From Phorcus lineatus (taxonomy: Eukaryota > Mollusca > Gastropoda > Trochida > Trochidae), in contig OV121086.1 of NCBI GenBank assembly GCA_921293015.1, positions 32,673,194-32,737,193 of the forward strand: a stretch of 64,000 nt of DNA, written 5' to 3'. A program made the position numbers and the translations under genes. Each line of letters begins with the position of its first letter. Position 1 is the first letter of the stretch. Shown piece by piece: positions 8,512 through 60,768 of the stretch. A model generated the notes under the pieces. That model worked only from the letters and a program-made list of their open reading frames with translations. It made no database searches and was not told the origin of the DNA.

Positions 8512-8521
8512 AAAACGTATG

Positions 8522-8703
8522 GAGTTCATATACTGTAACCACCTCTATATTACCTCTGCCATTGCGTCTACTTTAACTTACATAGTAAGTATTAAACAAT
8601 GATTGTGAAGCCAACATGATTCAAACATCCTGATGTCTACAAAAAAACCACTGTCTTGATGGTAGAACTAAACTTGAATATCAATTCATGTATATCCTAC
8701 TTT
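8522..8703. other. No gene seen
   Basis: Short spacer between LINE copy 1 and the TTAA-bounded unit. Confidence 0.4.
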
Positions 8704-9642
8704 AAGGATGTTCGCTCCTCAAATTTAAAGTATTAAACTTTTTTTCTAACTTGTATTTTTCAAATGTTAAGTGTATTTGCTTGAAATATGAACACACAAA
8801 AATAGGGGTTAGTGTGGGTTTTTTCGAAACATTCTAAGACAAAGATCCCTTTGTCAGTCACAGTTTTAACATGGGAGTCTATGGAGAAATCTTGACCTTT
8901 TTTGAGAAATCTTAAATTTTAATTATTTCCTGTATTAAACTTTTTTTAATATGAAAATATGTCAGAGTTAACATAATTTTCTTCCAGAAAAATGTAAAAA
9001 ATATATATGGTAGTGTGGGTTTTTAGCCGCTACGGAGCAACATGTATTGAAACATTTAAATTAAATAAACAACATTCAAGCTATTTTTGTACTAAAAACA
9101 TGCTTTCCTCCACTCATTATCTAAAAATCTACCTGAATGCATACATACAAATCATATTCATTCAACAACATCTACTTGCTAAGATAAACAGTAAATAAAA
9201 CTGGCCGAAATGATAGTTACAATTGAAAATTGATGAGTCAGCAAAATTATGAATTAATTCAAAATACATCAGACACGTTTTTTCTCTTTAAACACACCAT
9301 ATGTATTTGATTTATAATAAATAAACATGAAGAAAATACAAAATAGTAGAAATAACACAAAAATACAATTTATTTCTTTTCTCACACCACTTTTCAAAAG
9401 GTACAGAAAATCAAAAAATCATAAAGGGAAGCAACTGGTCAACTTGAAGCGCACATAAAATACCTAGAGAAATGTGTCTTGTCAGGTACACAAAATATTA
9501 ATTTAACTCAACCAGAAACTATAAATCCTTGGTTATTGTATGTTAACCAAAAAGGAATGTATCAAGTCATTATTCTCCAACTGAGATTCACAGACACACT
9601 GGGAAATCATAGGTTTATATGATCTGTATGTCACAGCATTCA

Positions 9643-9702
9643 TTACAACAGTTTATCCTCTACTCTGCATCTACTCTGCATCGGATGAAAGTACACATCT
9701 AC
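9643..9702 (-). other. Tentative terminal exon (small gene?)
   Basis: On the minus strand a pyrimidine-rich acceptor (CATCTTTTCAG) precedes 19 open codons and a TAA, reading VDVYFHPMQSRCRVEDKLL. It could join in phase 0 to the candidate exon at 12108-12161. No homology is recognised, and chance splice signals are common in AT-rich DNA. Low confidence. Confidence 0.15.
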
Positions 9703-9887
9703 CTGAAAAGATGAGTAAGTTGGTTAACTACACTCATTAGAATTGATTCCTTTTCATTTCATAATGGCAAACAGCCAATATTGTCATATCTTTTTAAAAA
9801 TCCATTACAGTTCATACAATGATGAACATAATTGATAATTTGGCCTTTGGAATAAGAGCAACAAGCTTGTAGTTAAGATGTGACTTT

Positions 9888-11504
9888 TGGATTGGTTCGA
9901 AAAAACGCTGTCGAATGAAACTTTTACAGGACAGTAAAATGGATTGGACTGAAACTTTTAAACTATTGGGTATAAAATTTGACACTCATCTTGAAAATAT
10001 GGTTGATCTTAATTATAATGATAAATTTAAAGAAATAGAAAATTCGATGCATCTCTGGAAAAGTAGAATCCTGACACCATTTGGACGTAATACAGTATTG
10101 AAATCACTATTCTTGCCAAAATTGAATCATTTGTTTTCTACTCTCCCAGCACCATCTGAAGATATTATACAATCCTTTCAAACTAACTGCTTTAGATTTA
10201 TTTGGAACGAAAAGCCAGATAAGATTAAAAGAGACCGAGTAACGAGTAATATTCCAGATGGAGGTTTTAAGGTTCCAATTATAAAAGATATCATTGCTTC
10301 ACAGAAAATTTCCTGGCTTCGCCGTATACAACTCTCAGATACTGCTTTTATAACATTTCTTATGGAAGCGAAGATTGTTCCACCAACTTTTTTGGAAAAA
10401 GATGCAAAATATATCAAAGACCATATTATAGATACCATAAGAAACCCTTTCTGGCGGGAGGTGTTATCATGTTGGAGTACCTTCTTGGATACATATAAGA
10501 AAACACGAAGGGATGCCTATTCCCAATTCTTATGGTATAATGACAATTTACAGGTTGATAATAAATACATTTACATTAGGAACTGGGAAGAAGCGGGAAT
10601 AAGATATATCAATGATTTGGTAGATAATGAAGGCAAACTCCTCTTTCACGAACAATTCATGAATATATATAATATTTCCTGTAATTTTTTAACGTACTAC
10701 GGTGTGTATAAAGCCGTAGATGCGTATCTAAAAACTCTAGAATCCGATGAAAATACCCCTTTGATGTCCCCAATACTCCCTTTCAACCACTCCTTACTCA
10801 TTAATAACCAAAAGGGATCAAAATATTATTATAATGTTTTATTACTATCAAAATTTCAGAGGACATCGGCCAATCAGCAATGGGAAACTGACATCACTAA
10901 TTTCACTGATCAAGAATGGAGAAATATAAATGAAATTCCCTTTCGAGCTACTGATAGTGTGCAATTGCGTTGGCTTCAGTATAGAATCATTAACCAAATC
11001 CTGCCTGTTAGTAAATATCTCTTTAAGATAGGCTATAAGAATTCTCCTTTATGTACAAGCTGTTACGGCTCTGATGCTGATATATGTCATGTATTATGGA
11101 ATTGTGAACATGCTCACTCTCTCTGGAATGAAGTTGAAAACTGGATAAATACGCAGGCGGAAATAAATATCTCCTTCACTAAGAGAAATGTTCTTCTAGG
11201 TTTTCTTTCAAAAAGTAATGATCCATTAAATGCAATATGTCTTGTGATTAAAGATGTTATTTTCAGAAGTTACCTTAATAAGAGGACATTATCATTTACG
11301 CACATTCAGAGAGAGTTGGCAAATTACTATAATGTAACAAAAACTATAGCCTTTTCTAATTGTAACCCTAACAAATTTGTAAAATTCTGGTCTAGTTGTC
11401 ATAACTTGTTCATTGACCATTCCGAATCAACTGTGCTGTTCAGTTTCGTGACAATGCTAAAAATGTTTTATATGATTTGCTGTACTTCAAAAAAAGTGGA
11501 ATAA
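9888..11504 (+). pseudogene. LINE ORF2 C-terminal part (529+ codons)
   Basis: The frame is open from the truncation point to the stop just before the A-tail. It starts with the RT thumb region (GSKKRCRMKL... then FKLLGIKF, typical of L1/Tx1 ORF2) and ends with the zf-RVT module CTSCYGSDADICHVLWNC. The upstream AP endonuclease and RT palm, including the YADD box, are absent through 5' truncation. The first Met at 9915 is internal, not a native start. It is non-functional on its own. Its lack of stops over 1.6 kb contrasts with the older LINE relics in the window. Confidence 0.9.
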
Positions 11505-13619: not shown

Positions 13620-14910
13620 TCAGCAATGTACTCGAAACAGATATTCTTCCAGTTGAAGGTTTGTATTCACCAGTCTCGTCGCGTAACGACCCATCGCATT
13701 ATTCTGCTTGATCTTGGTTAGTTTAGGAATACAACTTGCCTGCATATAAAATGGCAGGGCGTCCGTCCGTCTGTAAACTTTAACTAAACCAACCATTGAC
13801 TCAAGAAATCTCAAAGTAATGAGGTGTTTAATTAATAGATTTGATGACCATGAGACCCATACTACGGGCCAAAACCCCTTCTCCTAAAACAAAAGGTAAA
13901 TTTCAAAATGTGAAGAAGTATCGACGAATTTTAAGATTTTGTAACAAATAATTTAGCAAAATCATTCCAGTTTTATGTTTATGATAGAACGCGAATACGG
14001 GGCCTTGACCTGCTTCACGTATTGTATGTCGGCAAATGTATTTTAAAGTAATGAATTTTAAAACTTTTTTTAGATAAAGTAAGAACATTTATATGAATAA
14101 AGGTTCTATCCCATATGCGGTCATTGTTCATAGCGAAATGATATTGACTTATAATTTCCAAAGTTTAAAATAGTTCTCAAAAGAATCAAGTGATTTCTGA
14201 AGATCTAAGGGGGTCTCGGCGATAAGAACTGTATCTTTAGCATAAAGGAGAATAAGCAATCTTATCTCTATCAGCGCTTCTTGATCATGAATCGAATCAA
14301 CACTGACACCATTACATCCATTTTCTAAAAGTTTTCAAGATGATTAAAATAAATTGCAAACAAAACTCACCCCTGACGAACACCTGTATTGCAGGAAAAG
14401 TATTTAGATTTTTTTTATCTTTTATCATCAACTGATTTATATTACTAAAATGTTTTGACAAATTCATAGAATCTACCATGGATACCAGATCTGAGTAACT
14501 TTGTCCATGGACTAGTTCTGCAAACAGTGTCGAACGCTTTCGTAATATCTACAAAAGCGCATTTGGCTTTCTGCATTATCTGAAGTAGTGAATTTTTTTT
14601 CTATAACTGGCTTTGGCTTTGTTGAGAGTGTCATTTGTTTCCAAAAAAAAAGTCTATCATTAAGGATATGAGTAAACAGTTTACTGATGAAACTCAATAA
14701 CGTGATAGATCTATATGAATTTGGATCAAGCTTGTCGCCTTTATTTTCATAAAAAGGTTTAGCAATTCCGATCAGCCAAGACTCTGGGATATCACCTGAT
14801 GAAAATATAATATTAAATAGCTCATAGTATAACGAGGCTAGGAAGTATTGATTCACAAGAGGATGGAATAGTTTTGCAGGCTCATGAATTTCACCTAGAT
14901 TTTTTGTCAC
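13620..14910 (-). pseudogene. Old LINE reverse transcriptase relic
   Basis: On the minus strand, 14512-14910 encodes RT fingers (ELFNIIFSSGDIPESW, then GDKLDPNSYRSITLLSFISK). Further along, 14.22-14.28 kb reads LLILLYAKDTVLIA, a mutated YADD box (YAKD), and 13.90-14.09 kb continues in another frame with thumb-like sequence. Multiple stops and frameshifts separate the pieces. The motif style differs from the L1/Tx1 copies and resembles RTE/Ingi-type or related LINEs. The clade is not fixed. It is dead and older than copies 1-3. No A-tail or target duplication was identified. Confidence 0.7.
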
Positions 14911-15274
14911 TAAAGTCTGAATTTTGTACTATTTTTTCCTCCATAAACAAGTTGCTTTGCTTTCATTATAATAAAAGATCGTGTTCAATTTACAAACCAA
15001 ATATGGATATGAACATCGGTAGACCGTGCCAACAATTACCGATTAACAAATATTCATATATCTTTTTACCTAAAAGGTTTAAAGAAGTGTATGAAAAGTA
15101 TTTTCTTTATTTACCTTTACTTTAAGTTCATATACGTGTTCAGAATGGACTTTGTGCGCAATTGCGTCTTTCTGACAATAATATTATCGGTACAGTTTTC
15201 AAAAGAAATCTGATGGGTGCATTGCAAGCAGTGACAATGTTGTTATAGAAGTAATCTGTGGTTTATGTTATGTA
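14911..15274. other. No gene seen
   Basis: AT-rich. The plus-strand open frame here (83 codons) has no recognisable features and probably lies in the decayed flank of the LINE. Confidence 0.35.
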
Positions 15275-21400: not shown

Positions 21401-21666
21401 ATGTTATATACATGTTTATGTTCTGTTTGCTTCTCAGAGCGGTATGCTCTTTTTTCCTTTTTCTTTCTTCAAATGTCCTATGTTGGAAAATTGATCCTTT
21501 TAATTCTTCTCTATTTTGCTTTCAATCATGTTTCTCTTTCGCAAATATTCAAAGCAAGGTTTAAACAATACAACAGGAATGAATGTACATATGATTATTC
21601 ATCAACGAATATCGGGTATACAAGCTTTCATTTAGCAATCTATGTGGCTTATTATTCATCAATTAC

Positions 21667-22494
21667 ATGCATGCTAGTCCCAAACCAATGCCTTCTCTTC
21701 TTCGAATCTTTATTTCGCACACCATGGGAGTTGACATAGCGATGTATAGACAGAGGATTGGGACCTTCTGTACAATTTGTTATAACAATCGTAAGCATAG
21801 ATTAGATATTAACTCGTGCTTCCTAATAATTTCTTTCTATTTTCTTGGCATTTCAGGCTTACGCATAACTCTTCTAATAATCTTATGTTGTGGCGATGTA
21901 CACCCAAATCCTGGTCCTGATAATGCTGACATATCTATTTTACAGGTAAACGTATGCAGTTTACTTGAAAAAGTAGATTTAATATGTGCAGAACTAAAAG
22001 ACTTCATTTCCGAAACATGGCTTCATCCAGGTATAAAGAATGAAGAAATAGTTTTACCCGGCTATCATATGCCTTTCCGTAGGGATCGTCCAACTAGGAG
22101 AGGGGGTGTAGCAGTATATGTCAGGGATAACTTGCACGTTAAGCATAGGTCTGACCTTGAAATTCCTGGACTTGAGACTGTATGGGTAGATATTAACTGT
22201 AGAAACAAGAATTTTACAATAGGTACTTTTTATAGAGCTAAGTATACAGTTAGTTATTGGGATTTGATTGACGAATCAATAGCCCTAGCAAATGATAACC
22301 AGTCAACTCTTATTGTTCTTGGTGATTTTAACGTGAATATATACAACTCTACTAACACCAACATTACTAATCTCGAAAGACTTTACGGTTTGAAACAGAT
22401 TATTAATGAACCTAAGATCTACCTCAAAGACATTAATCGATCTTATTCTTATTGCGTGTCCAAATCAAACATCCTCTTTTGGGACACTAGCTAA
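21667..22494 (+). pseudogene. LINE ORF N-terminus: 2A-like motif and AP endonuclease
   Basis: 275 open codons. A hydrophobic stretch (about residues 50-74) ends in CCGDVHPNPGP (residues 74-84), a variant of the 2A consensus D-V-E-x-N-P-G-P with His for Glu. It is placed just before the endonuclease as in some invertebrate LINEs. Endonuclease motifs follow: NVCSLLEK, SETWL (catalytic Glu; a few residues before it seem lost), RRGGVAVYVRD and LIVLGDFNVN. The frame shifts near 22.47 kb, and the remaining SDHCPV endonuclease motif lies in the next frame. The protein would nick target DNA for target-primed reverse transcription. An upstream 112-codon frame (21401-21739) overlaps and is probably leader. 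Confidence 0.8.
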
Positions 22495-24046
22495 TTTTTG
22501 TAGTGATCATTGTCCTGTCTTTGTTAAACTGAGATATAAAAAGCCACCAGAACAGAGTTATTTGAGAAGAATATATGATTTAAATAGTATAGATGCAAAT
22601 GGGCTAACTGAAACAGCTTCATTATTTGATTGGAATGCAGGGTTGAATGATAATATTAATATAAGCACTCAAAACACAATCGAAGAAATAACTCAACTAA
22701 CAGATTCTTTTGTACCTAATAAATTGGTAAGAATTCGTCCACGTGACGAACCTTGGATGAATGGATACATCCGTAAACTCATGAGACAACGTAATAGAGT
22801 ACATAAAAAAGCCAAAATATTAAATTCTCCTGTACTTTGCGAAAAATTCAGACAAAAGCGGGACTTTGTAATTTCAGAAGTTAGAAAATGTAAAAAAGAA
22901 TATAATGACAATATTGACAATAGCTTAAACTCTGAACACGGTAGTAAAACTTGGTGGAAATTAGTTACAGATTATCTAAAAAAATCCTCAAAATCACAAG
23001 CATTTCCAAGTCTAGAACACGAGGGGCAAATCTACGATGACGATCAGGATAAGGCCAATATCATAAATAATTACTTCGTTAACAATACAAAGATTCCTGA
23101 CCACGACGACAGTATCATTGACAATACAACAAATCCCGAAATTGCCCTGCAACAAATACTTATTACAGAAAAATAAATTGAGGACATTTTAAAATCCCTG
23201 GACTCAACCAAATCAATCGGCCCCGATAAAATAAGTAACCGAATCTTAAAAGTCCTGTCTAGCGTCCTAGCTAAACCTCTCTGTCACTTATTCAATTTAT
23301 CCCTATTCCACTCAATTTTTCCTGATATCTGGAAAGTAGCATCTGTTATCCCACTCCATAAAAAGGAAAGTAAGCATTTATGCTCCAACTACAGACCTAT
23401 TTCATTCACAAGTTGTCTTTCAAAGGTTTTTGAAAAATGTGTTCATAAACATGTACATAACTTCTTTTTAAGTAATGGAATTATTACTCCGTTGCAGTCT
23501 TGTTTCACACCTAAAGACTCTACGGTATACCAGCTTACCCATCTTTATAATTTTATAAGTAAATCATTAGATGAAGGTAAAGAAGTCAAAGCAATTTTCT
23601 GTGACATAAGTAAGGCTTTTGATAGAGTATGGCATAAGGGGGTTTTATTCAAATTGAAAAAATATGGCATTCGGGGGAAATTATTGAATTGGTTTGAAAG
23701 TTATCTTTCTGATAGAAACCAGTAAACCGTTATTAACGGACAAAAGTCGGACACCAGATCATTATTAGCAGGCGTACCTCAGGGTTCTGTTTTGGGCCCA
23801 TTGTTATATCTAATTTTTATCAATGACATAGTTGACGAAATAAAATGCAATATAAGACTTTTTGCCGACGACACTTCCCTGTACGTTATTATTGGTGACC
23901 CAAATGAAACATCATGCCTCATTAATAATGATTTACTTAGAATTTCTGAGTGGGCCGATGAATGGAAAGTCAAGTTTAATACTGAAAAGACTCAGAGCAT
24001 AACATTCTCCAGGAAACGAGTACCTACGCAAGTACCGATTTTATGA
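22406..24046 (+). pseudogene. LINE ORF: endonuclease end and reverse transcriptase
   Basis: The frame continues from the endonuclease end (ANFCSDHCPVFV) through a linker to a TAA at 23174, then the RT. Motifs are STKSIGPDKISN, NYRPISFTSCLSKVFEK, AIFCDISKAFDRVWH, then a TAA at 23723 in place of a sense codon after SDRNQ. GVPQGSVLGPLLYLIFINDI and LFADDTSLY (catalytic FADD near 23861-23872) follow. These are standard CR1/Jockey-group RT boxes. With the stops ignored the domain is otherwise well preserved, so inactivation is moderately recent. Confidence 0.85.
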
Positions 24047-24960
24047 AAGGTAGAATGATAAACGATTTCACTACTCAAAAACATCTAGGGTTGATTTTCC
24101 AATCAGACGGTAATTGGCACTCCCACATTGAAAATATAATTTCAAAGGTAAGCCCGATGATAAACTGTTTACAAATACCGCCTGAGTCGACCTACTTTGT
24201 ATGTACTTTATAATTCCTACATCCTTCCTCTTTTTGACTCTTGTGATCATATATTTGATAACTGTACAAAATATCATGAAGTATTACTTGAAAAACATTT
24301 GGATGCACTAAGGACAATATGTGGTGCAGTTAGAGGTACCAGCCAACAAAAAAACTGTACGAAGAAACAGGGTTTACATCGCTAGCTGTTAGACGACAAC
24401 GTCACAAGTTATGTCTTTTTTTACAAAATGAAGTTTAACTTGACACCAGAATATTTATCGTCATTAGTTCCACCAGCAGTGTCCGAGATTTCAAACCGTA
24501 TTACCCGAACATAAAAAACTTACAAATTCCTGTATGCCATACTGAATTCTACAAACATTCCTTCCTACCATTTCTGCGTGGAATGATCTCGATGTGTCTC
24601 TTAAAGACTCTCAATCGTATGCTATCTTCAAAAAAGGCTTGTTTAAAATTGTTTGTAATGTTCATAGAATATTTCGAGATTTTAGAACTAGACAAAACCA
24701 GGTAACACTTTGTCGTTTAAGATTAGGCTGTAGTGAACTTAAGGGTCACATATTCGACAGGTTTATAGAAAACTCTGCTACCTGCTCTTGTAACTACTAT
24801 TACGAAGATGCTATGCATTACTTATTTTGTTGCCAAAACTATTCATGTATAAGATCAAACAGCTTTTATTATGTTAATGGTTTCGATTTAAAACTGTTCT
24901 TTTTGGTAATAACAAACTATCTGATGACACTAACTTGAAAATTGTTGATTCTGTTTGTAC
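24047..24960 (+). pseudogene. LINE ORF C-terminal region
   Basis: Downstream of the RT the relic continues in shifting frames. It includes KHLGLIFQSDGNWHSHI (24.08 kb, RT connection region) and AWNDLDVSLKDSQSYAIFKK. The open frame at 24594-24938 has a Cys/His pattern ATCSCNYYYEDAMHYLFCC, like the C-terminal motif of several CR1/Jockey-group elements. Several frameshifts. Confidence 0.65.
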
Positions 24961-33387: not shown

Positions 33388-33908
33388 GAATTACTTGAAT
33401 GCGGGAAGTGCAGACATGTCATTCTGTCAAAATGTTTGTATGTGTGAGGTTGTTCAATTTCATATCCATGCGACCATAACATTTATGTAAGATATTAGTA
33501 ATAGTTTCAGATTCAACTTTCATGTCTTGCTGTTCTTTTCCTTTCCTGTCTTGTTCAGTATATGTCACCCTTTTATGATTGAAACGTATAATCTCGTAAA
33601 TACCAAGGAGAGGGTATCCTAAGTTGGAGAACTTGTTCCCAATCCGTTTCATTATGCATAAAATATGTTTTAAACAAATTATATGTCATCTTCTGATGTA
33701 TCTTGTTAAATATTCGATGTTTTCAATAAGCCAACAATACATCAAATACCCTTATGAAAAGGGGAAAAGGGGAATTTTCAATGTACAATGCATTTAATGC
33801 ATTTTCAAACCATAACACATCACATTAATACATAAAGCACAAACATTCACGTAAATTTCTATCAATCAATCAATCGAACAAAATAAAAATTACATCAAAA
33901 TTATCCCT
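33388..33908. other. No gene seen
   Basis: Non-coding. A 77-codon minus-strand frame (33419-33652) has mixed composition but no splice sites or recognised family. Confidence 0.35.
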
Positions 33909-36900
33909 GTTAGTCAGGAAACTAACCGATACAAAACGACTGTAAGTTGTTAGTCAGGAAAATAACGAATACAAAACGACTGTAAGTTGGTAGTCAGAAA
34001 AATAACGAATACACAACGACTGTATGTTGGTAGTCAGGAAAATAACGGATACAAAAAGACTGTAAGTTGTTAGGAAAATAACGAATACAAAACGACTGTA
34101 AGTTGTTAGTCAGGAAAATAACGAAAAGAAAACGACTGTAACTTGGTAGTCAGGAAAATAACGAATACAAAACGACTGTAAGTTGTTAGGAAACTAACGG
34201 ATAGAAAACGACTGTAAGTTGTTAGTCAGGAAAATAACGGATACAAAACGACTGTAAGTTGTTAGTCAGGATAATAACGAATACAAAACGACTGTACATG
34301 TAAGTTGGTAGTCAGGAAAATAACGAATACAAAACGACTGTAAGTTGTTAGGAAACTAACGGATACAAAACGACTGTAAGTTGTTAGTCAGGATAATAAC
34401 GAATACAAAACGTCTGTAAGTTGGCAGTCAGGAAACTAACGGATACAAAACGACTGTAAGTTGTTAGGAAACTAACGGATACAAAACGACTGTAAGTTGT
34501 TAGTCAGGAAAATAACGAACACAAAACGACTGTGAGTTGTTAGTCAGGAAACTAACGGATAGAAAACGACTGTAAGTTGTTAGTCAGGAAAATAACGGAT
34601 ACAAAACGACTGTAAGTTGTTAGTCAGGATAATAACGAATACAAAACGACTGTACATGTAAGTTGGTAGTCAGGAAAATAACGGATACAAAAAGACTGTA
34701 AGTTGTTAGGAAAATAACGAATACAAAACGACTGTAAGTTGTTAGTCAGGAAAATAACGGATACAAAACGACTGTAAGTTGTTAGTCAGGAAACTAACGG
34801 ATAGAAAACGACTGTAAGTTGTTAGTCAGGAAAATAACGGATACAAAACGACTGTAAGTTGTTAGTCAGGATAATAACGAATACAAAACGACTGTACATG
34901 TAAGTTGGTAGTCAGGAAAATAACGAATACAAAACGACTGTAAGTTGTTAGGAAACTAACGGATACAAAACGACTGTAAGTTGTTAGTCAGGAAAATAAC
35001 GAAAAGAAAACGACTGTAAGTTGGTAGTCAGGAAAATAACGAATACAAAACGACTGTAAGTTGTTAGTCAGGAAACTAACGGATAGAAAACGACTGTAAG
35101 TTGTTAGTCAGGAAAATAACGAATACAAAACGACTGTAAGTTGTTAGTCAGGAAACTAACGGATAGAAAACGACTGTAAGTTGTTAGTCAGGAAAATAAC
35201 GGATACAAAACGACTGTAAGTTGTTAGTCAGGATAATAACGAATACAAAACGACTGTACATGTAAGTTGGTAGTCAGGAAAATAACGGATACAAAAAGAC
35301 TGTAAGTTGTTAGGAAAATAACGAATACAAAACGACTGTAAGTTGTTAGTCAGGAAAATAACGAATACAAAACGACTGTAAGTTGTTAGTCAGGAAAATA
35401 ACGAATACAAAACGACTGTAAGTTGTTAGTCAGGAAACTAACGGATAGAAAACGACTGTAAGTTGTTAGTCAGGAAAATAACGGATACAAAACGACTGTA
35501 AGTTGTTAGTCAGGATAATAACGAATACAAAACGACTGTACATGTAAGTTGGTAGTCAGGAAAATAACGAATACAAAACGACTGTAAGTTGTTAGGAAAC
35601 TAACGGATACAAAACGACTGTAAGTTGTAAGTCAGGATAATAACGAATACAAAACGTCTGTAAGTTGGCAGTCAGGAAACTAACGGATACAAAACGACTG
35701 TAAGTTGTTAAGAAAATAACGAATACAAAACGACTGTAAGTTGGTTGTCAGGAAACTAACGGATAGAAAACGACTGTAAGTTGTCAGGAAAATAACGGAT
35801 ACAAAACGACTGTAAGTTGTTAGTCAGGATAATAACGAATACAAAACGACTGTACATGTAAGTTGGTAGTCAGGAAAATAACGGATACAAAACGACTGTA
35901 AGTTGTTAGTCAGGAAACTAACGGATAGAAAACGACTGTAAGTTGTTAGTCAGGAAAATAACGGATACAAAACGACTGTAAGTTGTTAGTCAGGATAATA
36001 ACGAATACAAAACGACTGTACATGTAAGTTGGTAGTCAGGAAAATAACGGATACAAAAAGACTGTAAGTTGTTAGGAAAATAACGAATACAAAACGACTG
36101 TAAGTTGTTAGTCAGGAAAATAACGAATACAAAACGACTGTAAGTTGTTAGTCAGGAAAATAACGAATACAAAACGACTGTAAGTTGTTAGTCAGGAAAC
36201 TAACGGATAGAAAACGACTGTAAGTTGTTAGTCAGGAAAATAACGGATACAAAACGACTGTAAGTTGTTAGTCAGGATAATAACGAATACAAAACGACTG
36301 TACATGTAAGTTGGTAGTCAGGAAAATAACGAATACAAAACGACTGTAAGTTGGTAGTTAGGAAAATAACGAATACAAAACGACTGTAAGTTGTTAGTCA
36401 GGATAATAACGAATACAAAACGTCTGTAAGTTGGCAGTCAGGAAAGTAACGGATACAAAACGACTGTAAGTTGTTAAGAAAATAACGAATACAAAACGAC
36501 TGTAAGTTGGTTGTCAGGAAACTAACGGATAGAAAACGACTGTAAGTTGTCAGGAAAATAACGGATACAAAACGACTGTAAGTTGTTAGTCAGGATAATA
36601 ACGAATACAAAACGACTGTACATGTAAGTTGGTAGTCAGGAAAATAACGGATACAAAACGACTGTAAGTTGTTAGTCAGGAAACTAACGGATAGAAAACG
36701 ACTGTAAGTTGTTAGTCAGGAAAATAACGGATACAAAACGACTGTAAGTTGTTAGTCAGGATAATAACGAATACAAAACGACTGTACATGTAAGTTGGTA
36801 GTCAGGAAAATAACGGATACAAAAAGACTGTAAGTTGTTAGGAAAATAACGAATACAAAACGACTGTAAGTTGTTAGTCAGGAAAATAACGAATACAAAA

Positions 36901-37426
36901 CGACTGTAAGTTGTTAGTCAGGAAAATAACGAATACAAAACGACTGTAAGTTGTTAGTCAGGAAACTAACGGATAGAAAACGACTGTAAGTTGTTAGTCA
37001 GGAAAATAACGGATACAAAACGACTGTAAGTTGTTAGTCAGGATAATAACGAATACAAAACGACTGTACATGTAAGTTGGTAGTCAGGAAAATAACGAAT
37101 ACAAAACGACTGTAAGTTGGTAGTTAGGAAAATAACGAATACAAAACGACTGTAAGTTGGTAGTCAGGAAACTAACGGATACAAAACGACTGTAAGTTGT
37201 TAGGAAACTAACGGATACAAAACGACTGTAAGTTGTTAGTCAGGAAAATAACGAAGACAAAACGTCTGTAAGTTGGCAGTCAGGAAACTAACGGATACAA
37301 AACGACTGTAAGTTGTTAGGAAAATAACGAATACAAAACCACTGTAAGTTGGTAGTCAGGAAAATAACGGATAAAAAATGACTGTAAGTTGTTAGTCAGG
37401 AAAATAACAGATGCAAAACAACTGTA
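33909..37426. repeat. 40-bp minisatellite with higher-order repeats (3.5 kb)
   Basis: Roughly 88 units of a 40-bp repeat (GTTAGTCAGGAAAATAACGA followed by ATACAAAACGACTGTAAGTT) without spacers. Variants include a ~36-bp form lacking GTCA and a 46-bp form containing GTACATGTAAGTTGG. The 46-bp marker recurs at 34294, 34652, 34894, 35256, 35538, 35852, 36018, 36300, 36618, 36784 and 37066. The last two blocks (35538-36300 and 36300-37066) have almost the same spacing series (314/166/282 and 318/166/282), so a ~764-bp higher-order unit was duplicated recently. Each unit carries stop codons, so it is not coding. It lies ~3 kb beyond the 3' end of the minus-strand gene. Confidence 0.97.
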
Positions 37427-38753: not shown

Positions 38754-39978
38754 AAACTAGTTCACTTCCGACCCTTAAAGAAGATGCAAGTCAATATCGT
38801 ATTCGTGGAAATGAACCCAACATTTCAGAAATTTATGTAAAGCAAGAGGAAAACTGCTTACTTGAAACATTTAAATGTTAATAACAATATACAACAATGC
38901 ATTGCAAAACATGTTTTATCAATAAGTTATAGATAAAAACATAACATCTATAATAATAACATGACTGATGATATTTTTATATGACAATAATGAAACACTA
39001 TAAATACAAAAATATTACTTATTTAGAAAACTTGTATCAAGCCATTGGCTAGATAGCTCATCTGGCTTTAGATCATATATAAATAATGTTTAAAAAGTAA
39101 AATAAATAGGTTTTCCATAAGCAGTTAAAACATTTGGTACAAAAGATATCAGCTTTGTGGCTTTTAATTCTTGAGAGGAAGGCAAAAATGTTGTCTACTG
39201 TGCGCCTCATTTGCAACCTCAGGGTTAACAAATAACAACATATTACTACACAATTCTTGCCTTTCAGGCTTGATGATCTTAAATACAAATGATATTAATC
39301 ATTGAAGAATTTATATTTTTAAAAAGACTTGTTTTGTTAACAAATTAAATTACCATATTTTGAAGAGGAAGTTGCAAACGAATGCAATACAATCAGTTCA
39401 CACAAATGATTGTTTAACAGTACCTGAAGTTTTAGTTGCATGAAAGTAGGAGAATACTTTAAACACCAGTTGTTTTTACTTTGAAAAGCCCTTCAACATG
39501 CATGAATAAAATTATTCAAGGGAAAATTAAACGGAATTTCATCAAGAGGCAATACAAATGAAAATGAAGATCTATAAAAAAAAATATCACGTGAGAAACA
39601 CAACCCGACTTAGTAACACATGATGATATTGTCATTCTCTATAACAGCGGTTACTTTTCCTCGAACGCTTCTGTTACTGTTACCAGAGATGAGAGAAAAC
39701 ACATTGAAAGTAAAAGATGGCTTGCTAATGGATCCTAGGTAAGACCATGTTGCTCACAATTTCACAACGGTCATGGAATTTGAAACAGGATTCTAACAAA
39801 TCATTCCAAAAGGATTTTACAAATCAGTATGAAAGGGACAGTAGACATTAGTCTATGCCGACTTTATTATCTTCAGAGTGTCAAAACATCTCATTCAACT
39901 CGACCATCCGCAGTCGTAGAGGAAATAATCAAGTATCAAGCAAAACCCACTGGTGGCCTGTTTGTGTTGGAAATAGAG
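38754..39978. other. No gene seen
   Basis: Non-coding. The short frames on the minus strand (for example 39073-39288) lack features. Confidence 0.45.
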
Positions 39979-40551: not shown

Positions 40552-43491
40552 TCATTCTTCCTTCATGGGAAAGCCTTTTTCCAAATCTTCAAGGGATGTT
40601 GGCAGGAAGAAAAGCTGAAGTGTAAGTTTACTGCCATAATGAGTATCGAAGTCATTAAATAATTCCACGATCTCAAGTTGGGCGATTGTTGACTTTGTGC
40701 TGGGAAGATATTTCTGTAATAATTCAAAAACATCTGTCCAAACAGACTTAGAGTGTTCCTCACTGGAGTCCTCCATGGTTTTGATAAACTCGTCTTTTTG
40801 TAACCTGAACTTATCAGTCAGGATGTATTTCCCAAAGAATTGATCAGTTACATAATCTTGTTTCTTCAAATCCCCCAAGATGTTCTCGGCCTGTTTATGA
40901 CCATAGTGCTGTGCCAAGATGTTCCTCATTGTCTCTTCCTCCTTCAGTTTCTTATCCTTCTTCTCATCACGTACGGCTAAAACATAGACTAGTTTTCTTT
41001 TCTTGGAATTGAACAATGACAAAAACTTTTTCTTTGTCAGCTGTTTCATTTTGTTCACTGTTGCTCTTCTGTAAAAGTACTGAGCTTGGTCTTTATCTGG
41101 TTCTAAGGTGTATTTCTCCCACATTTCTTCAAGCATGCTACAGGTTGAGTGGGTGGTTAATGAAGTAAACAGCAGTTTGGCGGAATTCTTTATTTGTGAA
41201 CAGACGTCCCGAACTGTTTGTCCAAATCCATCTTTAACATGAATCAGATAAGTTTTCTTCCGGTCAAACTTGAGAATATCAAACATTTCGATGTTTCTTG
41301 TACAAATCTGATCCCCAACTATGTATCCTTCTCCAGGATTTTTGAGATACCTGTCATACAGGATGTAACTTGTGTTGTATAAGAGTTCAACCAAATTAGA
41401 ACGAACACGGAGAAACATCAACATAACAATGACTGTATCTTCTTTCTCGTATTGATGTGTTTTGTATGTTATTCCTTGGTCTGTATCTGGTGGTTTGTCG
41501 CATGAAATCTTTTCAAGGACATGCATAAATTTTTTTTCCGTCATGTTTGGAAAACTCAACTTCATGAACTTAATGAGGTCACTCATTTGAAATGATTGAC
41601 TATTTAAATATTTAGTGCCACACTTTCCTGTATATACCCATGGCAAGGGAAGGATAGTTTCGTCTGTCAACGTACACTTATGTAATATATTTTGGAATTC
41701 TTCAGCAACAATACCGACGAATTCAGCTTTGATCTTAAGCCATTTCCCATGCCAGAAGAAATATTGTTTATTTTCCAACATTATCTGATGAACAAGCAGT
41801 TCGGCAATTGGTTTTCTTATCAGAGTACTTTTTCCTTTGAATTGCATAGTAAATTTTGCGCTGTTACGAAGCAAGTCCAATGAAATATTTGTCTTGCATT
41901 CATCTGAAGCATCAAGTACTTCATTCAAAATTGCTGGCATTCTTGGCCATTCCTTTTCAGGATCCTTTTTTGTTCCTAGATAGAGTTTGAAAGTGTCGGT
42001 ATCCATCCATTCAGAGAGATCAGGTAGTGAAAGGGGAATACAGAGTCCAGAATCGTTTTTCAATGATTCATCAAACCCTTTCTCCAGTTCATTTATCTTC
42101 TGTTGGTCTCTCTCCTCCTGTATCAACTCGAAACATTTGAAATTGCCATCATCTTTTTCCTGGTTTGTCACAGATTGTTCAACCTTGATGAAATTTTTGC
42201 TTACAAGGGAATATATATAACTGGTTTTTTCGTAGCGAAACTTAATGTTCTTGTTGATGAACTTGCGAATGGATTCTTTTTTCTTCCCATTCTGCAGCAT
42301 TACATTGTCAACTAACCAGGAAAAATTTAATCCAGGATCCTGTAACGCTTCATTAGAGTAAACGTCTCTTAATGCATTCAAAATTTCGTGAACAGTTGTA
42401 GGAAAGGTCAGAGTTGTGAAACCAATACCACGTTTGTACTTTATATGCAAACTATATTGTCCAGTCCCACCTTTCACGGCAAAGATTTTGTCTCCTCCTG
42501 ACCGATCCAAATACAGCAATAGCCTTCTGTCTAGTTTGGACTTCAACTGTGAATCTTTTATTTTTTTAAACTTGTGATGTAACTTTTTACTTTCATCGGT
42601 GTCAGAGTGAAGTATTCTGTGATCAGAGAGAAATGTGTCTTTCCCTTTGTCAATGTCAGCCACGTGTTTGATAAATGAAAGCATTTCAGTTAAGGAAAGT
42701 GTAGTGTGAGCTTTCAAGAAAAACGGTTTTATTGTAAATTTGCAGTCTTTGCTCACTTCAAAACCAGGCAGATCATAAAGCGAAGAAAGATCCGTTGGAG
42801 ACGCTGTGTAAGAATGAACAATGACATGAATAAGATCCAAAATATTCGGCACCTCTGGGCAATTTGGACGGAATATTTTTCTAGTTTGTTCCATTTTTCC
42901 AGTCACATTTCTTGTTTCTATTTTGATTGTTTTGAATTCAAGCAGTCTTTTGGCTACATTCTTGGGGAAATATGGACAGCTTTTTCTCTGCACTTTTCTG
43001 TATGCCTGTCCTGATGTCATCACGAACATGACTGGATCCACGTCTGTGAAGAAGAAGATCATAAAGCTTCTTGAGGTATTGAGTGTCTCCACTCTCTGGG
43101 TGCCTTCCACAATGGAATTAACAGCTAATGACATGGCAGAATCATTCGTAGAGGTGATGACAAACACTTTCACTCCATAGTGAGAGGGATGATTCGCGAT
43201 CTCTTGTTTGGTAGCATCATTGAGCTCCAGCTCAGTGATTGAGGGAATGTCGTTTTCAGTCTCCTCATTCCCTCGGTCATCTACATGATTTTCTGATTCA
43301 TCAATGCCGTTTCCCTTTGCTGAGGCATCCCCTTCCCTAGCGCTACCTGGTTCTTTCACACCTTGCTCTGGCGTCCTACCTACACGGCGTTTTACTGTCG
43401 ATTTAAAACCTAATATTTTTTCTATGACCTCTGCTGGCGATTCTTTGCCCATTATGATTTTTGACAGATTCATTTCCGGGAATGGCCTGGT
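40552..43491 (-). CDS. Large DUF6119/TIGR04141-like protein, main (3') exon
   Basis: An uninterrupted 980-codon exon (Met at 43473, 973 aa from there) after a strong acceptor (AATTTGCATTTCAG), in phase 0 with upstream exons. The N-terminal ~95 residues are polar linker. Residues 100-275 hold alternating beta-type segments (VKVFVITS, SFMIFFFT, DPVMFVMTSGQ), then LSLTEMLSFIKHV. The second half has YFFWHGKWLKI (571-581), ILPLPW (607-612), RNIEMFDILKF (726-736), YLIHVKDGFGQTVRDVCSQI (742-761) and KLVYVLAVRD (827-836). The order GKW, LP, then 'IE-x-DIL...LIHVK...' matches my memory of the prokaryotic DUF6119/TIGR04141 family. This is an inference, not a search result. Function is unknown and no catalytic site is claimed. 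There is no signal peptide or membrane helix, so it is probably intracellular. Overall length exceeds the ~550 residues I recall for bacterial members, so eukaryotic extensions or insertions are expected. Confidence 0.8.
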   Translation of the reverse strand, partial: TRPFPEMNLSKIIMGKESPAEVIEKILGFKSTVKRRVGRTPEQGVKEPGSAREGDASAKGNGIDESENHVDDRGNEETENDIPSITELELNDATKQEIANHPSHYGVKVFVITSTNDSAMSLAVNSIVEGTQRVETLNTSRSFMIFFFTDVDPVMFVMTSGQAYRKVQRKSCPYFPKNVAKRLLEFKTIKIETRNVTGKMEQTRKIFRPNCPEVPNILDLIHVIVHSYTASPTDLSSLYDLPGFEVSKDCKFTIKPFFLKAHTTLSLTEMLSFIKHVADIDKGKDTFLSDHRILHSDTDESKKLHHKFKKIKDSQLKSKLDRRLLLYLDRSGGDKIFAVKGGTGQYSLHIKYKRGIGFTTLTFPTTVHEILNALRDVYSNEALQDPGLNFSWLVDNVMLQNGKKKESIRKFINKNIKFRYEKTSYIYSLVSKNFIKVEQSVTNQEKDDGNFKCFELIQEERDQQKINELEKGFDESLKNDSGLCIPLSLPDLSEWMDTDTFKLYLGTKKDPEKEWPRMPAILNEVLDASDECKTNISLDLLRNSAKFTMQFKGKSTLIRKPIAELLVHQIMLENKQYFFWHGKWLKIKAEFVGIVAEEFQNILHKCTLTDETILPLPWVYTGKCGTKYLNSQSFQMSDLIKFMKLSFPNMTEKKFMHVLEKISCDKPPDTDQGITYKTHQYEKEDTVIVMLMFLRVRSNLVELLYNTSYILYDRYLKNPGEGYIVGDQICTRNIEMFDILKFDRKKTYLIHVKDGFGQTVRDVCSQIKNSAKLLFTSLTTHSTCSMLEEMWEKYTLEPDKDQAQYFYRRATVNKMKQLTKKKFLSLFNSKKRKLVYVLAVRDEKKDKKLKEEETMRNILAQHYGHKQAENILGDLKKQDYVTDQFFGKYILTDKFRLQKDEFIKTMEDSSEEHSKSVWTDVFELLQKYLPSTKSTIAQLEIVELFNDFDTHYGSKLTLQLFFLPTSLEDLEKGFPMKEE

Positions 43492-45351
43492 CTGAAATGC
43501 AAATTGTTTTCCATTTTTAGATCATTATCCAATACAACACTGAAATGGCTTGTCCCATAAGAAAAACTGACATCAATTAAACTTCTCTCAATATGAGTAT
43601 GTTTTTAAAACATAATTGATTGGACTGTCAAAAGCTGTGCACTAGACTGTTTTGAGGCATAGAACAATACTCACAAGAACGGCAAAATTGTAAAGAAGCA
43701 TGCACTCTAATAAGCCCGAATTTCTCCTTCAAAAGATGTTAATAGTGTTATCATTTCCTTCGTAGTAATGTATTTATTTTCATATCAATGTCAACTAAGA
43801 CATCAATAACCATACAATTTATTTGAATTATGTTCAATCCAATGTTTTGCTATTAGGATCTTGATCATTTGTTGCAAGATTTGATAAATTGGATTTATGA
43901 TTTCTTATACATATCCAAATGAAAACGAACTGATGAAGAGGTTAGTGTGTTAAAAAGATGGCAAACTGTTAACTGATTCAGCAAACTTTAAATATCTCTC
44001 ATTACACTCTGTACCTAAGCAGGTTTTTTAAAAATTGTTCTATGATCAATTGTTCTCCAGATAAAACAAATTGTCCAGTATTGGTGCACGAAGAAGACGA
44101 CTTTACACAAAATGGAAAGAAATTTATTAAACCGTTACATTTTCCTTAAATCATGATACAAATGGAAATAAATAATTGAAAAGTAGTTGTTTAGGAAATA
44201 AATACGGATAAATTTCCACGCTCATAGAAATATTATATCTTGTGAAATACTTTCTAACGGCACAAGTGCATTTAAAAACAACTCTAAACTGTTTGAAATT
44301 AGCAACGGATACATTTTTCTGGACCCAAAATTTGTCTACCCTTTTTGTTGACCACCCCACCCACCCATCTACACATGAAGCTTTCATGTCAAGAGAGTTA
44401 TTTCAGTGGTGAAATTGGGGGATATTGGTAATATTTGACTGAGAACTGTGACCGATATGATGCTATTAAACATTATATCATTACTTAAAATATAACCTTA
44501 TGTTAACATGTCAATACTTAAGAAATAAAGTTCGCTCTTCCCCAATGTATTTTGTAATAATGTATAGTTTTACCCTGAACCATTAAGACAAAGCACGAGG
44601 ACGGTAGTCCGAGTGCTTTAACGTTGTAATAGTTCAGGGAAAACTATACTCTGTCAGGGGGCAGTGGGGGAGAGCAGATATAACGTCATTCAATTGTTAG
44701 GTCATGAAAAAACTATACCTTTATTGTCTGATAAAGTACTTTTTTCGATTGTTCTAACCGCTAGCCATCTTAAAAACAAATATACAGTAACATTGTAAAT
44801 AGATAAAAAGTAATAATGCACAAAAAATGCATTATTCAAGACAACATAAATTAATAAAAAAAATTATCCCAAAATCTTAAGCTTCCATGTATTTCTTGGT
44901 TCTGGAGGTAAACGAATGAAGTTTTGAGGGTGGACATGCCTGCAACTCCCATGTTGGAGAAGGGAAGGTCATGACCAAATCTACAAATGTGGATATACTA
45001 GTTACCGACCCCAACTCCCTCTACACGTCTTATTACATTGGAGGACCTTCAATAACCATGATTATGCATGAAATCCTGGTTACCAAAGGCCTGGCAGCTG
45101 TTCTCGTTAATGATTTTTGTGAATGAAGCACTGGTTATATCAGTTGATTTCATGTGTAAATTTTGCTGATTACTTGAGCTACAAATATGATTTTGCTCTC
45201 TTTTTAATTCTCATAATCACAGCTTTTAGAAAGGATAGGCCATTTTTAATTGCAAACCTGTTGTAAGTTTTAACCTTAAAGGAACAGATCCTACTTCATA
45301 GTTACATGGCAATATATCATTCTCAGGCGGCGGAATAAATTAATTACTAAC
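43492..45351 (-). other. Intron of the large gene
   Basis: Bounded by donor AAG|GTTAGT at its upper end and acceptor TTTCAG at its lower end. It contains hairpin H5 (44534-44675) and no supported exon. The 78-codon minus-strand frame at 44151-44387 lacks splice context. Confidence 0.6.
44534..44675. repeat. Long hairpin (H5), CGAG-type centre, intronic
   Basis: The outer arms GCTCTTCCCC and GGGGGAGAGC and inner arms around ATAGTTTTACCCTGAAC and its complement enclose AAGCACGAGGACGGTAGTCCGAGTGCTT. It shares arm sequence with the hairpin at 52.76-52.88 kb, so the two are copies of one element. It would form a strong structure in the pre-mRNA. Confidence 0.8.
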
Positions 45352-45473
45352 CTTGCAATCTGTATCTGTTTCTGTTTCTGCATCTGTTTCTGTTTCTGTA
45401 TCTGTTTCTGCATCTGTTTCTGCATCTGTTTCTGTTTCTCTATCTGTATCTCTATCTGTTTCTGTTTCTGCAT
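45352..45473 (-). CDS. Hexanucleotide-repeat exon: Asp/Glu/Thr linker
   Basis: A 122-nt exon between acceptor TTTGTTCACAG and donor AAG|GTTAGT. It completes a split codon from the exon at 46022-46139 (phase 1) and leaves phase 0 for the main exon, so all three exons join in frame. It is almost wholly a GAAACA/GATGCA/GATACA hexamer repeat, encoding DAETETDRDTDRETETDAET and a similar continuation ending DCK. The product is an acidic, Thr-rich, probably disordered linker whose length could vary in steps of two residues. Splicing is inferred from sequence only. Confidence 0.6.
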
Positions 45474-46021
45474 CTGTGAACAAATATAAACATTTACTGA
45501 TAAGATTCTTAAATGTTATCAATTACACGAATTTGAGCCTTAAGTCCTTTAGAAAACGGTGAACATCAGTTTTTTTGGGAGTGCATTAGGCCACTGGGAT
45601 TTTCAAATCTTGAACCCGGTTTAAGGTGACATGATTTAATATAGTAATTAAAAGCATGGCGGAAAATATTAAATATGTTTTAGCGATGTCAAACTAATTT
45701 TTGGAACTAGCCTTTCTCAGGTGTTATTTCAGTCATGAACAGGATGTCCAATTCTAAGATATAATTTGGTCAAACTCGGTGAACCTCTACTACAATACGC
45801 CATGAAACCAGTACTTGGATACCCCCCTGTCAAATGCAGTCAATCGTTAATTGCATGAGTTGACAACTGTTACTTCACTTTTGGGTGAATTCCATGTGAC
45901 AATCGGGAAATGATCCGATCAGGAAAGGTCCAAGTAGTAATTAGCAACTTGACGGTTTAAGTTGTTTTGTGCAGTACATTGTGTATTTACCTGTATAATG
46001 TCTGTATGCTATTCTGCTTAC

Positions 46022-46139
46022 CTCGATCGTCCACCTGTACCTCATCTGGTTCTGATTTGACTGATGATGTTGGACTGCTTGACTCCATCCTTTTAAAAAC
46101 TGTTGTAGACTCCTGGGGTTCAGTCACGTTCCTATGATC
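46022..46139 (-). CDS. Upstream coding exon of the large gene
   Basis: A 118-nt exon between acceptor TTCATTACAG and donor GAG|GTAAGC, open in phase 0 (starts DHRNVTEPQESTTVFKR). It then reads MESSSPTSSVKSEPDEVQV-DDR and ends with one base of a split codon that joins the repeat exon. It includes a possible initiator Met at codon 18, and another Met could come from the candidate microexon upstream. The content is polar, Ser/Glu-rich and likely disordered. A broken duplicate lies at 49098-49211. Confidence 0.6.
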
Positions 46140-46758: not shown

Positions 46759-47227
46759 ATGATTTTCGGGAGCACTCGATGTCTCTGTAACAAATTGCGC
46801 GTCAGAAAGTGAATCAAATCGAAATAAAACATCTCATGTGACATATCACTGTCGATATATATCTCTAACATGCATTCGAAATACTAAATCTCTTTATTAA
46901 AAGTTACTGTATATAAGTATTAAAAAGGAAAACCACTATCTAATGATGAGCTTTTTAAGCTATTGTAAGCTTGAAATTGCCAAAAACCTTTTTTATGAAG
47001 AGATGGCTTGTTGGAAATGAGAATCAGGATCCTTCGTTCAATTTCCAAATTTATCAAAAGAGAAAGTTTACTAATTCTTTGAACAAGAAAAATCAAGTTA
47101 AAATTCTAATTACTGCAAACAAAACTTCATTTTATGACAAACTTTTATCCTCCACAGAGGTTACTCGAGGCATGTCTTTCCTAACAACTTCTAATAACAT
47201 TAAACATGATGGAATGGATTTATAGAG

Positions 47228-51059: not shown

Positions 51060-51905
51060 TTATCTACATTGACTTTCAATCCTGAAAAACGGGCAAATAG
51101 TTCCAAGGTATTTAAAGCTGAATAAAGGTTTTTTTCCCGATCCATCTAATGTGAGAGTTGTATCATCTGCGAACTGTGAGAGAAGATATTCTATATTTCC
51201 TATTCTAATTCCCTTTATGTTTTTGTTATTTCTTATCATGATACCCAAAATTTCTACACAAAGTAGAAAAATATATGGCGCTATCGGGTCCCCCTGGCGG
51301 CATCCTCGGCTTATTTTAAATGGGTTAGATGCGAAACCATTAACCAGGACTCTCGATTAAATATCATTATAAAATGTTTCTATCCAATGTGAAATACTCG
51401 GTCCGAAATTGAAAAACTTCAAAACATTGGTGAGGTATTTTCTGTCTACTGAATCGAATGCCTTTTCGAAATCAATTAGAAGTAGTAAGCCTGGTATCTG
51501 ACATGTTTCGGTGTGTTCCATTAGATCATATATAAGCCTCGTTACCTCTCCAATATATCTCCCTTTGACGAAACCCTTTTGATCTTCATTTATTATGCTT
51601 GGCAAAACCTGTTTTATTCTATTTGCGATAGCTGCAGCACCAACTTTATATGACGTATTTAGTAAGGAGATTGGGCGCCAGTTTTTCAAGAATTTCTTAG
51701 GTTTGTCAGGTTTAGGAATGCATGTTATTAATCCTTGATTTTGCGAAATGGATAGGTTTCCGTTTTCATAGCCAAAGTTGAGGGAGTTAAGGAGAAATAC
51801 TCCAAGATATTTCCAGAAGAATTTAAGAAACTCAGTGGTAAAACCATCGGGCCCGGGACTTTTTTCATTTTTCATATTTCTTAACGAAAATGACAGCTCA
51901 TTCAA
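51060..51905 (-). pseudogene. LINE copy 3: reverse transcriptase
   Basis: 51357-51905 encodes the fingers and first palm motif (KSPGPDGFTTEF, NWRPISLLNTSYK, LLLIDFEKAFDSVDRKYL). After a stop, 51.25-51.30 kb gives RGCRQGDPIAPYIF-like sequence, and 51060-51248 contains LLSQFADDTTLTL, the catalytic FADD box. Several frameshifts and stops are present, so it is older than copy 2. The motifs place it in the L1/Tx1 clade. It is non-functional. Confidence 0.85.
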
Positions 51906-52075
51906 TTTTAATTTTCATTCAAGGTTATTTTTATCATGTTCATTTAGAAATGGAAAATTATCATTTTTTAAATATCTCTAACATGCATTCAATATTTATA
52001 AACCGCAATATTTAAACTAACCGTATACAAGTTTGAAAAGAAACCCACTGTGTGATTAGCTTTTTAAACTAGTGT

Positions 52076-56185: not shown

Positions 56186-56490
56186 GATTTCTGCCATTCG
56201 CGTCTTCGCTATTTCGTGATATGCCAACCTGGGGCGAAATAGCGAAGAAGCGATGCGAAATAGCGAAGTAGCGATGCGAAACGGCGAAATGGCGATGCGA
56301 AACAGCGAAAGGGCGATGCGAAGTAGCGATGCGAAATAGCGAAGACACGAAGCACTTTGCTTCGCTATTTCGCATCGCATCTTCGCTATTTTGCATCGCG
56401 TCTTCGTTACTTCGTGTCTTCGCTACTTCGTGACATCACAATTTCGTCACCGGATTCGCGGTTTGCCTCACTCGCTACTTCGCGTCCTCC
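56186..56490. repeat. 21-bp minisatellite in inverted-repeat element (copy 1)
   Basis: Starts with GGTGGCTGATTTCTGCCATT and continues into GCGAAATAGCGAAGTAGCGAT-type units, then into the inverted form (TTCGCTATTTCGCATCGCAT). The array is therefore palindromic overall. The period is a multiple of three, so it opens repetitive frames (YFASLLR-like) on the minus strand that are not real genes. Confidence 0.85.
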
Positions 56491-60369: not shown

Positions 60370-60768
60370 AGCTTCGACACGAAATTGCGAAGGCGCGAAA
60401 TAACGAAAATGCGAAGACGCGAAACAGCGAACACGCGAAATAGCGAAATAGCGAAGTAGCGATGCGAAATAGCGAAGTAGCGATGCGAAATAGCGAAGTA
60501 GCGATGCGAAATAGCGAAGTAGCGATGCGAAATAGCGAAGGAGCGATGCGAATGAGCGAAAAGGCGATGCGAAGTAGCGATGCGAAGTAGCGATGGCACG
60601 ATGCACTTTTGCTTCGCTATTTCGCATCGCATCTTCGTTGTTTCGCATCGCACCTTCGCTATTTCGCATCGCTATTTCGCTATTTCGCATCGCTATTTCG
60701 CTATTTCGCCCTTGGTTGACATATCACGAAATAGCAAAGACGCGAATGGCAGAAATCAGCCACCATAG
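60370..60768. repeat. 21-bp minisatellite in inverted-repeat element (copy 2)
   Basis: Units GCGAAGTAGCGATGCGAAATA repeat about five times perfectly at 60.44-60.54 kb, after which the sequence inverts (TTCGCTATTTCGCATCGCTA). The right end AATGGCAGAAATCAGCCACC is the reverse complement of the left end of the 56.19-kb copy. Repetitive frames on both strands are artefacts. Confidence 0.9.

Follow-up and report, generated by a model that had tools for sequence, protein, structure and literature searches.

The closest described relatives of the gene examined here are prokaryotic proteins grouped under TIGR04141 and DUF6119 (PF19614), each termed a "sporadically distributed protein." The literature searched contains no description of this family or of a defense association for it. 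A precedent for a bacterial defense-associated family becoming a small eukaryotic gene family is amoeba TirBCD, eukaryotic immune genes derived from bacterial defense for which transfer and toxicity are reported (PMC13142454). A second point of comparison is the restriction-endonuclease fold, in which one family is assigned the motif "E, D, ExK, Q" and a QxK variant is also recorded (PMC3482391). The gene lies on the minus strand of a 64,000-nucleotide stretch of the genome of the gastropod Phorcus lineatus (contig OV121086.1, positions 32,673,194 to 32,737,193; hereafter the window). The COX1-bearing contig of this genome, translated with the invertebrate mitochondrial code, has frames recognizable by eye as ND2, COX1, COX2, and ATP6, in this order, which points to a mollusk and probably a gastropod. 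We tentatively favor, at slightly short of an even call, the view that it descends from a nuclease-like defense effector of bacteria that was co-opted in animals.

Membership of the window gene in the DUF6119/TIGR04141 family is almost certain. The protein scores 64.5 bits against Pfam DUF6119, which has a curated gathering threshold of 27, and 65.8 bits against NCBIfam TIGR04141, which has a curated cut-off of 35. An initial annotation of this DNA had proposed a resemblance to the family. Because both curated cut-offs are passed, that resemblance is a true family relation. Searches of the 958-Mb genome, one for DUF6119 and one with protein sequence, give at least seven DUF6119 loci. These form two clusters (C11, which includes the window gene, and C19) and include one pseudogene. 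All five of the listed genome places exceed the Pfam DUF6119 cut-off. Profile coverage extends over positions 202–369 for the best-scoring stretch of the window protein and over 70–451 of 524 for paralog P0001. Paralogs P0002 and P0003 and the protein of a bacterial homolog, L024, gave no hmmscan match to DUF6119 at E 0.01, and a six-frame search placed loci L004, L005, and L024 over the cut-off. Among the C-terminal parts of the six animal proteins, DUF6119 is listed for five at E up to 10, the best value being 3.5e-10. No PADLOC family was matched by the window protein or by the bacterial members scanned (L026, L048, and L053).

The relation between animal and bacterial C termini is also seen in profile–profile comparisons. 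The animal profile aligns to the bacterial one with a probability (P) of 91.7% and an E of 7.8e-7, and with a P of 39.5% when query and template are exchanged. L024 aligns to the animal profile with a P of 96.8% over 54 columns, a result that was unchanged across repeated hhalign runs, and to the bacterial profile with a P of 85.6% (bacterial to L024, 50.7%). Ten comparisons with control profiles (HsdR, HsdM, HsdS, SprT, and integrase) gave P values of 0.3% or less. A HMMER model of the bacterial C-terminal part finds the window protein at E 1e-7 among 2000 shuffled decoys, and two C11 paralogs, one C19 paralog, and L024 outscore every decoy in the same test.

The gene model is built on a minus-strand open reading frame (ORF) of 989 open codons (43521..40552), in which an acceptor after ATTTGCATTTCAG places the exon start at 43491. 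Residues of the candidate active site are numbered from this position. The initial annotation had proposed a long exon with a clean acceptor and two in-phase upstream exons, and this arrangement is upheld: The two upstream exons have AG/GT borders, the three exons join in phase, and the only stop is the terminal one. The peptide blocks that it quoted are all present in the translation, and its assignment of the gene to a eukaryote agrees with the three-exon model and with the paralogs in this animal genome. The relevant features are as follows.

40552..43491, minus strand: large 3' coding exon of 979 codons plus stop, containing the DUF6119/TIGR04141 domain
45352..45473, minus strand: predicted middle exon of 122 nt, in phase, with acceptor TTCACAG and donor GTTAGT, encoding a low-complexity acidic AET/TD repeat
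46022..46139, minus strand: predicted first exon of the model, 118 nt, in phase, with acceptor TTACAG, donor GTAAGC, and an in-frame ATG (MESSSPTSSVKSEPDE...)
41668..42168, minus strand: best-scoring Pfam DUF6119 stretch (ORF residues 452–618, profile 202–369)
41182..41388, minus strand: candidate active-site segment, E702...D713...E735xxD738...H751xK753...Q766xxxS770
43000..43020, minus strand: N-terminal block MTSGQAY, which aligns with the bacterial "FALTFG.G" block
42157..42624, minus strand: insert of ∼155 residues, also present in the C11 pseudogene and missing from the other five paralogs

These exons are predicted from sequence, and further 5' exons are possible. A chance origin of the long exon is excluded because two curated family models are passed and because the genome holds six more homologous loci, five of them intact. 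A tandem repeat at 45358–45477, an acidic simple repeat, coincides with the middle exon. An internal repeat was considered as the origin of the ∼155-residue insert and was rejected as not significant, since 295 and 110 of 300 shuffles scored equally high.

Conservation was examined in an alignment of 30 proteins: six intact animal proteins, L024, and four genome-search, 15 plasmid, one phage, and three viral-contig proteins. The partial plasmid gene L053, the pseudogene, the near-identical sequences L042, L043, and L055–L057, the weak or cut sequences L030 and L031, and plasmid records that were not fetched were left out. Five residues (D713, E735, D738, K753, and Q766) are invariant in all 30 proteins, animal and prokaryotic, and E702, H751, and W584 are each found in 29. 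The position of H751 thus reads HxK in 29 proteins and LxK in one, and the position of S770 is occupied by S in 22, A in five, Y in two, and G in one. The invariant site residues of the prokaryotic family are identical in the animal proteins, and both groups share a block order of FALTFG-like, GxW, ExxD, HxK, and Q; the last four of these are all present in the window protein. The block order put forward in the initial annotation holds for GKW and for IExxD...HVK and only loosely for LP, whereas its KLVYVLAVRD block aligns with none of the 24 prokaryotic rows.

Several features set the animal proteins apart. Their coding exons encode ∼790–1060 amino acids, whereas the prokaryotic proteins examined have ∼530–630, and the animal proteins have acidic N-terminal tails (C11 genes), extra inserts, FD in place of CD, and no SHL before Q. 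The SHL feature, which was read off this alignment and is no part of the published family definition, precedes Q in most of the aligned prokaryotic members; L024 and all six animal proteins have other residues there but retain Q. L024 also resembles the animal proteins in having ELFD and HIKDG, although it is a single-exon bacterial gene of 630 amino acids, unlike the animal genes.

The arrangement E-D-ExxD-HxK-Q resembles a restriction-endonuclease-like site in which H replaces D/E, and we regard it as a candidate active site. PD-(D/E)XK nucleases such as Tox-REase-1 (E, D, ExK, Q) have a like order of acidic residues, xK, and a helix Q, and they appear to share two strands, a helix, and a strand with a weak structural model of the bacterial domain. 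The differences are that HxK stands in place of (D/E)xK and that no profile match was obtained. This model, an AlphaFold2 prediction from six sequences of the bacterial C-terminal domain, has a mean predicted local distance difference test score (pLDDT) of 51 and a predicted template modeling score of 0.52. Its putative core runs strand-strand-helix-strand-helix-strand, with block pLDDT values of 51–72 over residues 71–180. A full-length AlphaFold2 prediction of a bacterial member from four sequences (pLDDT 35) was unusable and was discarded.

Bacterial members of the family are defense-associated at the loci that were read, which on the bacterial side lends support to the defense-like character suggested in the initial annotation. 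Searching with the L026 protein identified 31 plasmid records and one phage record. Sixteen differing plasmid records were fetched, of which 14 are annotated (L051 and L054 are without annotation), and the gene tables are incomplete. Type I restriction–modification (R-M) genes are nearby at seven of the 14 annotated loci (L032, L034, L036, L045, L046, L049, and L053), and a defense gene of any kind is nearby at 12. At L036, L045, L046, and L049, the gene order is HsdS, DUF6119, HsdR, SprT, such that this accessory slot of type I R-M operons is repeatedly filled by members of the family. Elsewhere, L035 is near IetAS, L037 adjoins AbiH, and L047 is near Gabija and Shedu (PADLOC was applied to these three loci), whereas L048 adjoins a NACHT gene and L050 has a TIR gene ∼6 kb away. 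The controls were five stretches of 42 kb, drawn from five of these plasmids at places chosen by the analyst and divided into 15 windows of 14 kb. None of the control windows contained R-M genes, and one contained a defense gene (AbiEii) and, in addition, a UvrD-type helicase. By Fisher's test, the difference is significant for R-M (7/14 vs. 0/15, p 0.002) and for any defense gene (12/14 vs. 1/15, p 2e-5), and it persists when loci that the tree groups as related are counted once (4/9 for R-M, p 0.012; 7/9 for any defense gene, p 0.0007). Plain toxin–antitoxin genes were counted in neither the test nor the control set.

Outside the plasmid set, L026 lies between HsdS and HsdR as read by eye; the L024 island contains an integrase, a type II methyltransferase, and a PifA-like NTPase; and the phage member L038 is located between two integrase genes. 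The neighbors of L027–L029 and of the viral-contig members were seen as reading frames only and are outside the counts, and two frames beside L029 gave no Pfam hit. R-M neighbors are a feature of the bacterial relatives only, as no HsdR, HsdM, or HsdS was seen by eye among the 14 ORFs of at least 130 amino acids in the window. No role of a bacterial DUF6119 gene in restriction was found in the literature searched. At the R-M loci L032, L036, L045, L046, and L049, a gene for an SprT-family metalloprotease adjoins HsdR, which suggests a recurrent accessory module.

The initial annotation had noted a local duplication. Duplicates exist, although none of the other copies is within the window. The C11 cluster consists of the window gene, the pseudogene, and genes at 32.67 Mb and 32.57 Mb, the copies outside the window being ∼2, 11, and 100 kb ahead of its start. 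The C19 cluster comprises three frames of 805–810 codons within ∼43 kb. The C11 pseudogene (L002/L007, C11:32660224-32662371) has several stops and is 53% identical to the window gene over the best stretch; this decayed copy shows that the cluster has undergone loss besides gain. Ratios of nonsynonymous to synonymous substitution (dN/dS), estimated by the Nei–Gojobori method, are 0.51, 0.32, and 0.35 in the C19 trio and 0.38 for one C11 pair. Purifying selection acts on the measurable paralog pairs of the family and is not directly demonstrated for the window copy.

Near the pseudogene, ∼4 kb upstream, is an exon for part of an OTU-like cysteine protease (24.8 bits vs. 23.3) at C11:32655872-32656234 (L059:5872-6234). 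Its identity to the five further OTU-like places listed for this genome is 23%–36%. That this exon forms part of a DUF6119 gene was considered and rejected, as it is absent from the window and from the paralog loci checked, and its relatives in the genome are not located at other copies.

When the animal alignment was used to scan a species-genome collection, 83 stretches matched, and one homolog was confirmed among them. This is L024, from a metagenome-assembled genome of the Bacteriovoracaceae (UBA6200). Because both scan patterns are narrow, relatives closer than L024 may exist. DUF6119 is over the cut-off in at least four of 368 genomes of its phylum, one of the proteins being L026, and is found in at least six of 368 at E 0.001. 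The tally is a lower bound because that search omitted the L024 genome, which is over the cut-off in a single-genome search. Only L024 itself was found as an L024-like gene among these 368 genomes, and its protein gave no match against plasmids. Among viral contigs, a pattern search yielded three members, a second pattern recovered the same three contigs, a scan with L040 recovered two of them (L042 and L043), and a prophage-type query yielded three near-identical members. The animal-alignment scan of viral contigs matched 83 stretches with none confirmed, tblastn with animal queries found no plasmid homolog and no credible phage homolog, and scans with A3 and with L032 alone returned nothing.

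A phylogeny was obtained for six proteins from this genome and 24 prokaryotic proteins. In this unrooted maximum-likelihood tree (537 columns), the six animal proteins form one clade (100/100), which L024 joins (99/95) against the 23 other prokaryotic proteins on a branch of length 2.35. Pairwise identity between animal proteins and L024 is 16%–19%, which is not above that with other bacteria (best 17%–19%). A link between the animal proteins and L024 is probable on these sequences. The closest homolog found outside the Phorcus genome is bacterial, within a search scope that excludes other eukaryotes.

The favored mechanism can be outlined as follows. The C-terminal part would be a nuclease-like phosphodiesterase domain with the order E (helix), D, ExxD (strand), HxK (strand), and Q (helix), and this site would bind a metal ion and cut nucleic acid. 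The N-terminal half and the GxW region may sense or position the substrate. In bacteria, the protein would serve as an extra effector or would aid in restricting foreign DNA. The animal protein would have the same core plus an acidic, probably disordered N-terminal tail, its gene may have been gained by lateral transfer or retained from an old ancestor, and it would act inside the cell against foreign nucleic acid. Because the presumed active site is kept and the bacterial kin lie near defense genes, the animal copies are possibly a borrowed or very old immune enzyme. Given family membership, we judge nuclease activity to be about an even prospect; that the animal gene acts in immunity is somewhat less probable. 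We infer both the enzyme activity and the immune role. It is unlikely that the full scheme holds. In that scheme, DUF6119 would be an undescribed defense effector of the nuclease type that acts in bacteria alongside type I restriction and other anti-phage defenses, and at least one animal lineage would possess an expanded family of it that serves as an immune nuclease within cells.

Several results weigh against this proposal. The canonical (D/E)xK is replaced by HxK, such that D is present and the PD-(D/E)XK motif is incomplete, and HxK does not appear in the consulted part of PMC3482391. The C-terminal model, with its low mean pLDDT, is too weak to confirm a fold. Foldseek gave no match for it at E ≤ 0.001 in the PDB or among viral models, and the weak hits listed include a few nucleases (XPF, HamA, and endonuclease I) and mostly other proteins. 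No Pfam nuclease family was matched by 23 bacterial and six animal C termini at E up to 10, there is no profile similarity to the HsdR family, and the window protein has no sequence relatives in the PDB, with profile searches giving only matches of E ≥ 0.39. Two C19 paralogs score under the best shuffled decoy in the HMMER test with the bacterial model. Two of the 14 plasmid loci (L033 and L052) lack a defense neighbor, and the controls were scored by annotation alone, whereas three test loci were also scored by PADLOC; by annotation only, the test count is 11 of 14. Synonymous sites are saturated in 11 of 15 paralog pairs, including every pair with the window copy, for which there is consequently no dN/dS value. 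With no Foldseek match at E ≤ 0.001 in those collections, the case for a nuclease is made by motif and context and not by fold.

A noncatalytic role in defense is an alternative that we consider unlikely but serious. The conserved residues could stabilize a module that binds nucleic acid or protein; within a type I R-M system, such a module might be a subunit for assembly, specificity, or inhibition. The animal copies would then be binding proteins too. Placement between HsdS and HsdR would fit an assembly or regulatory factor, and both the lack of detected similarity to known nucleases and the H in place of D/E are in keeping with this possibility. However, several polar residues of the sort found in metal-dependent active sites are nearly invariant across very diverged proteins, which is unexpected for mere binding, and some members have no adjacent R-M operon.

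It is improbable that the animal copies are passengers of selfish DNA with no function in immunity, whether a domesticated transposon, a provirus, or a bacterial insertion. Bacterial members do occur on plasmids, in prophage-like contigs, and beside integrases, the window has several retroelement-like frames, and most of the animal coding sequence falls in one long exon. Yet the copies are few and confined to two clusters, dN/dS is well under 1 in the measurable pairs, and defense neighbors in bacteria are far more common than elsewhere on the same plasmids. In addition, no convincing terminal inverted repeats surround the gene; short pairs with ∼72% match bracket it (e.g., 39412-39440 with 47114-47142, among 25 of 48 pairs listed).

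Less probable still is the view that the protein is a phospholipase D-type enzyme with HxK, like the restriction enzyme BfiI. HxK is present in 29 of the 30 proteins, and restriction enzymes of this type with HxK are described in PMC4081073. The ExxD strand that precedes HxK and the Q helix that follows it are nevertheless foreign to a phospholipase D site. The phospholipase D pattern is HxK(x)4D, and its D corresponds to Q in the window protein and to residues other than D in the bacterial rows inspected. Bacterial contamination or an assembly artifact, to which the bacterial identity of the closest outside homolog might point, can be dismissed, as the gene is inside a 58.7-Mb contig where borders are intron-like, frames resembling retroelements occur, and the base composition matches, and it has paralogs on two chromosome-sized contigs.

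An effector origin of the animal genes, if true, would bring one more family into the small set of immune genes common to bacteria and animals. The defense association of the bacterial family was not found in the literature searched; that the animal genes represent a new defense gene common to both groups is doubtful. An unstudied gene that is found repeatedly inside type I restriction operons can now be named and tested directly in bacteria, and a small animal gene family is offered for functional study.

Elsewhere in the window, retroelement-like (reverse transcriptase) frames, recognized by eye, are located at 6947-11504, 14512-14928, 21595-24938, and 51357-51914, and they flank the gene on both sides. 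A minisatellite with a 40-bp unit and ∼88 copies occupies 3.5 kb (33908-37426), where G and A are strongly skewed between the strands. Two 21-bp tandem arrays of the GCGAAATAGCGAA type are present at 56234-56432 and 60380-60709, each in both orientations close together.

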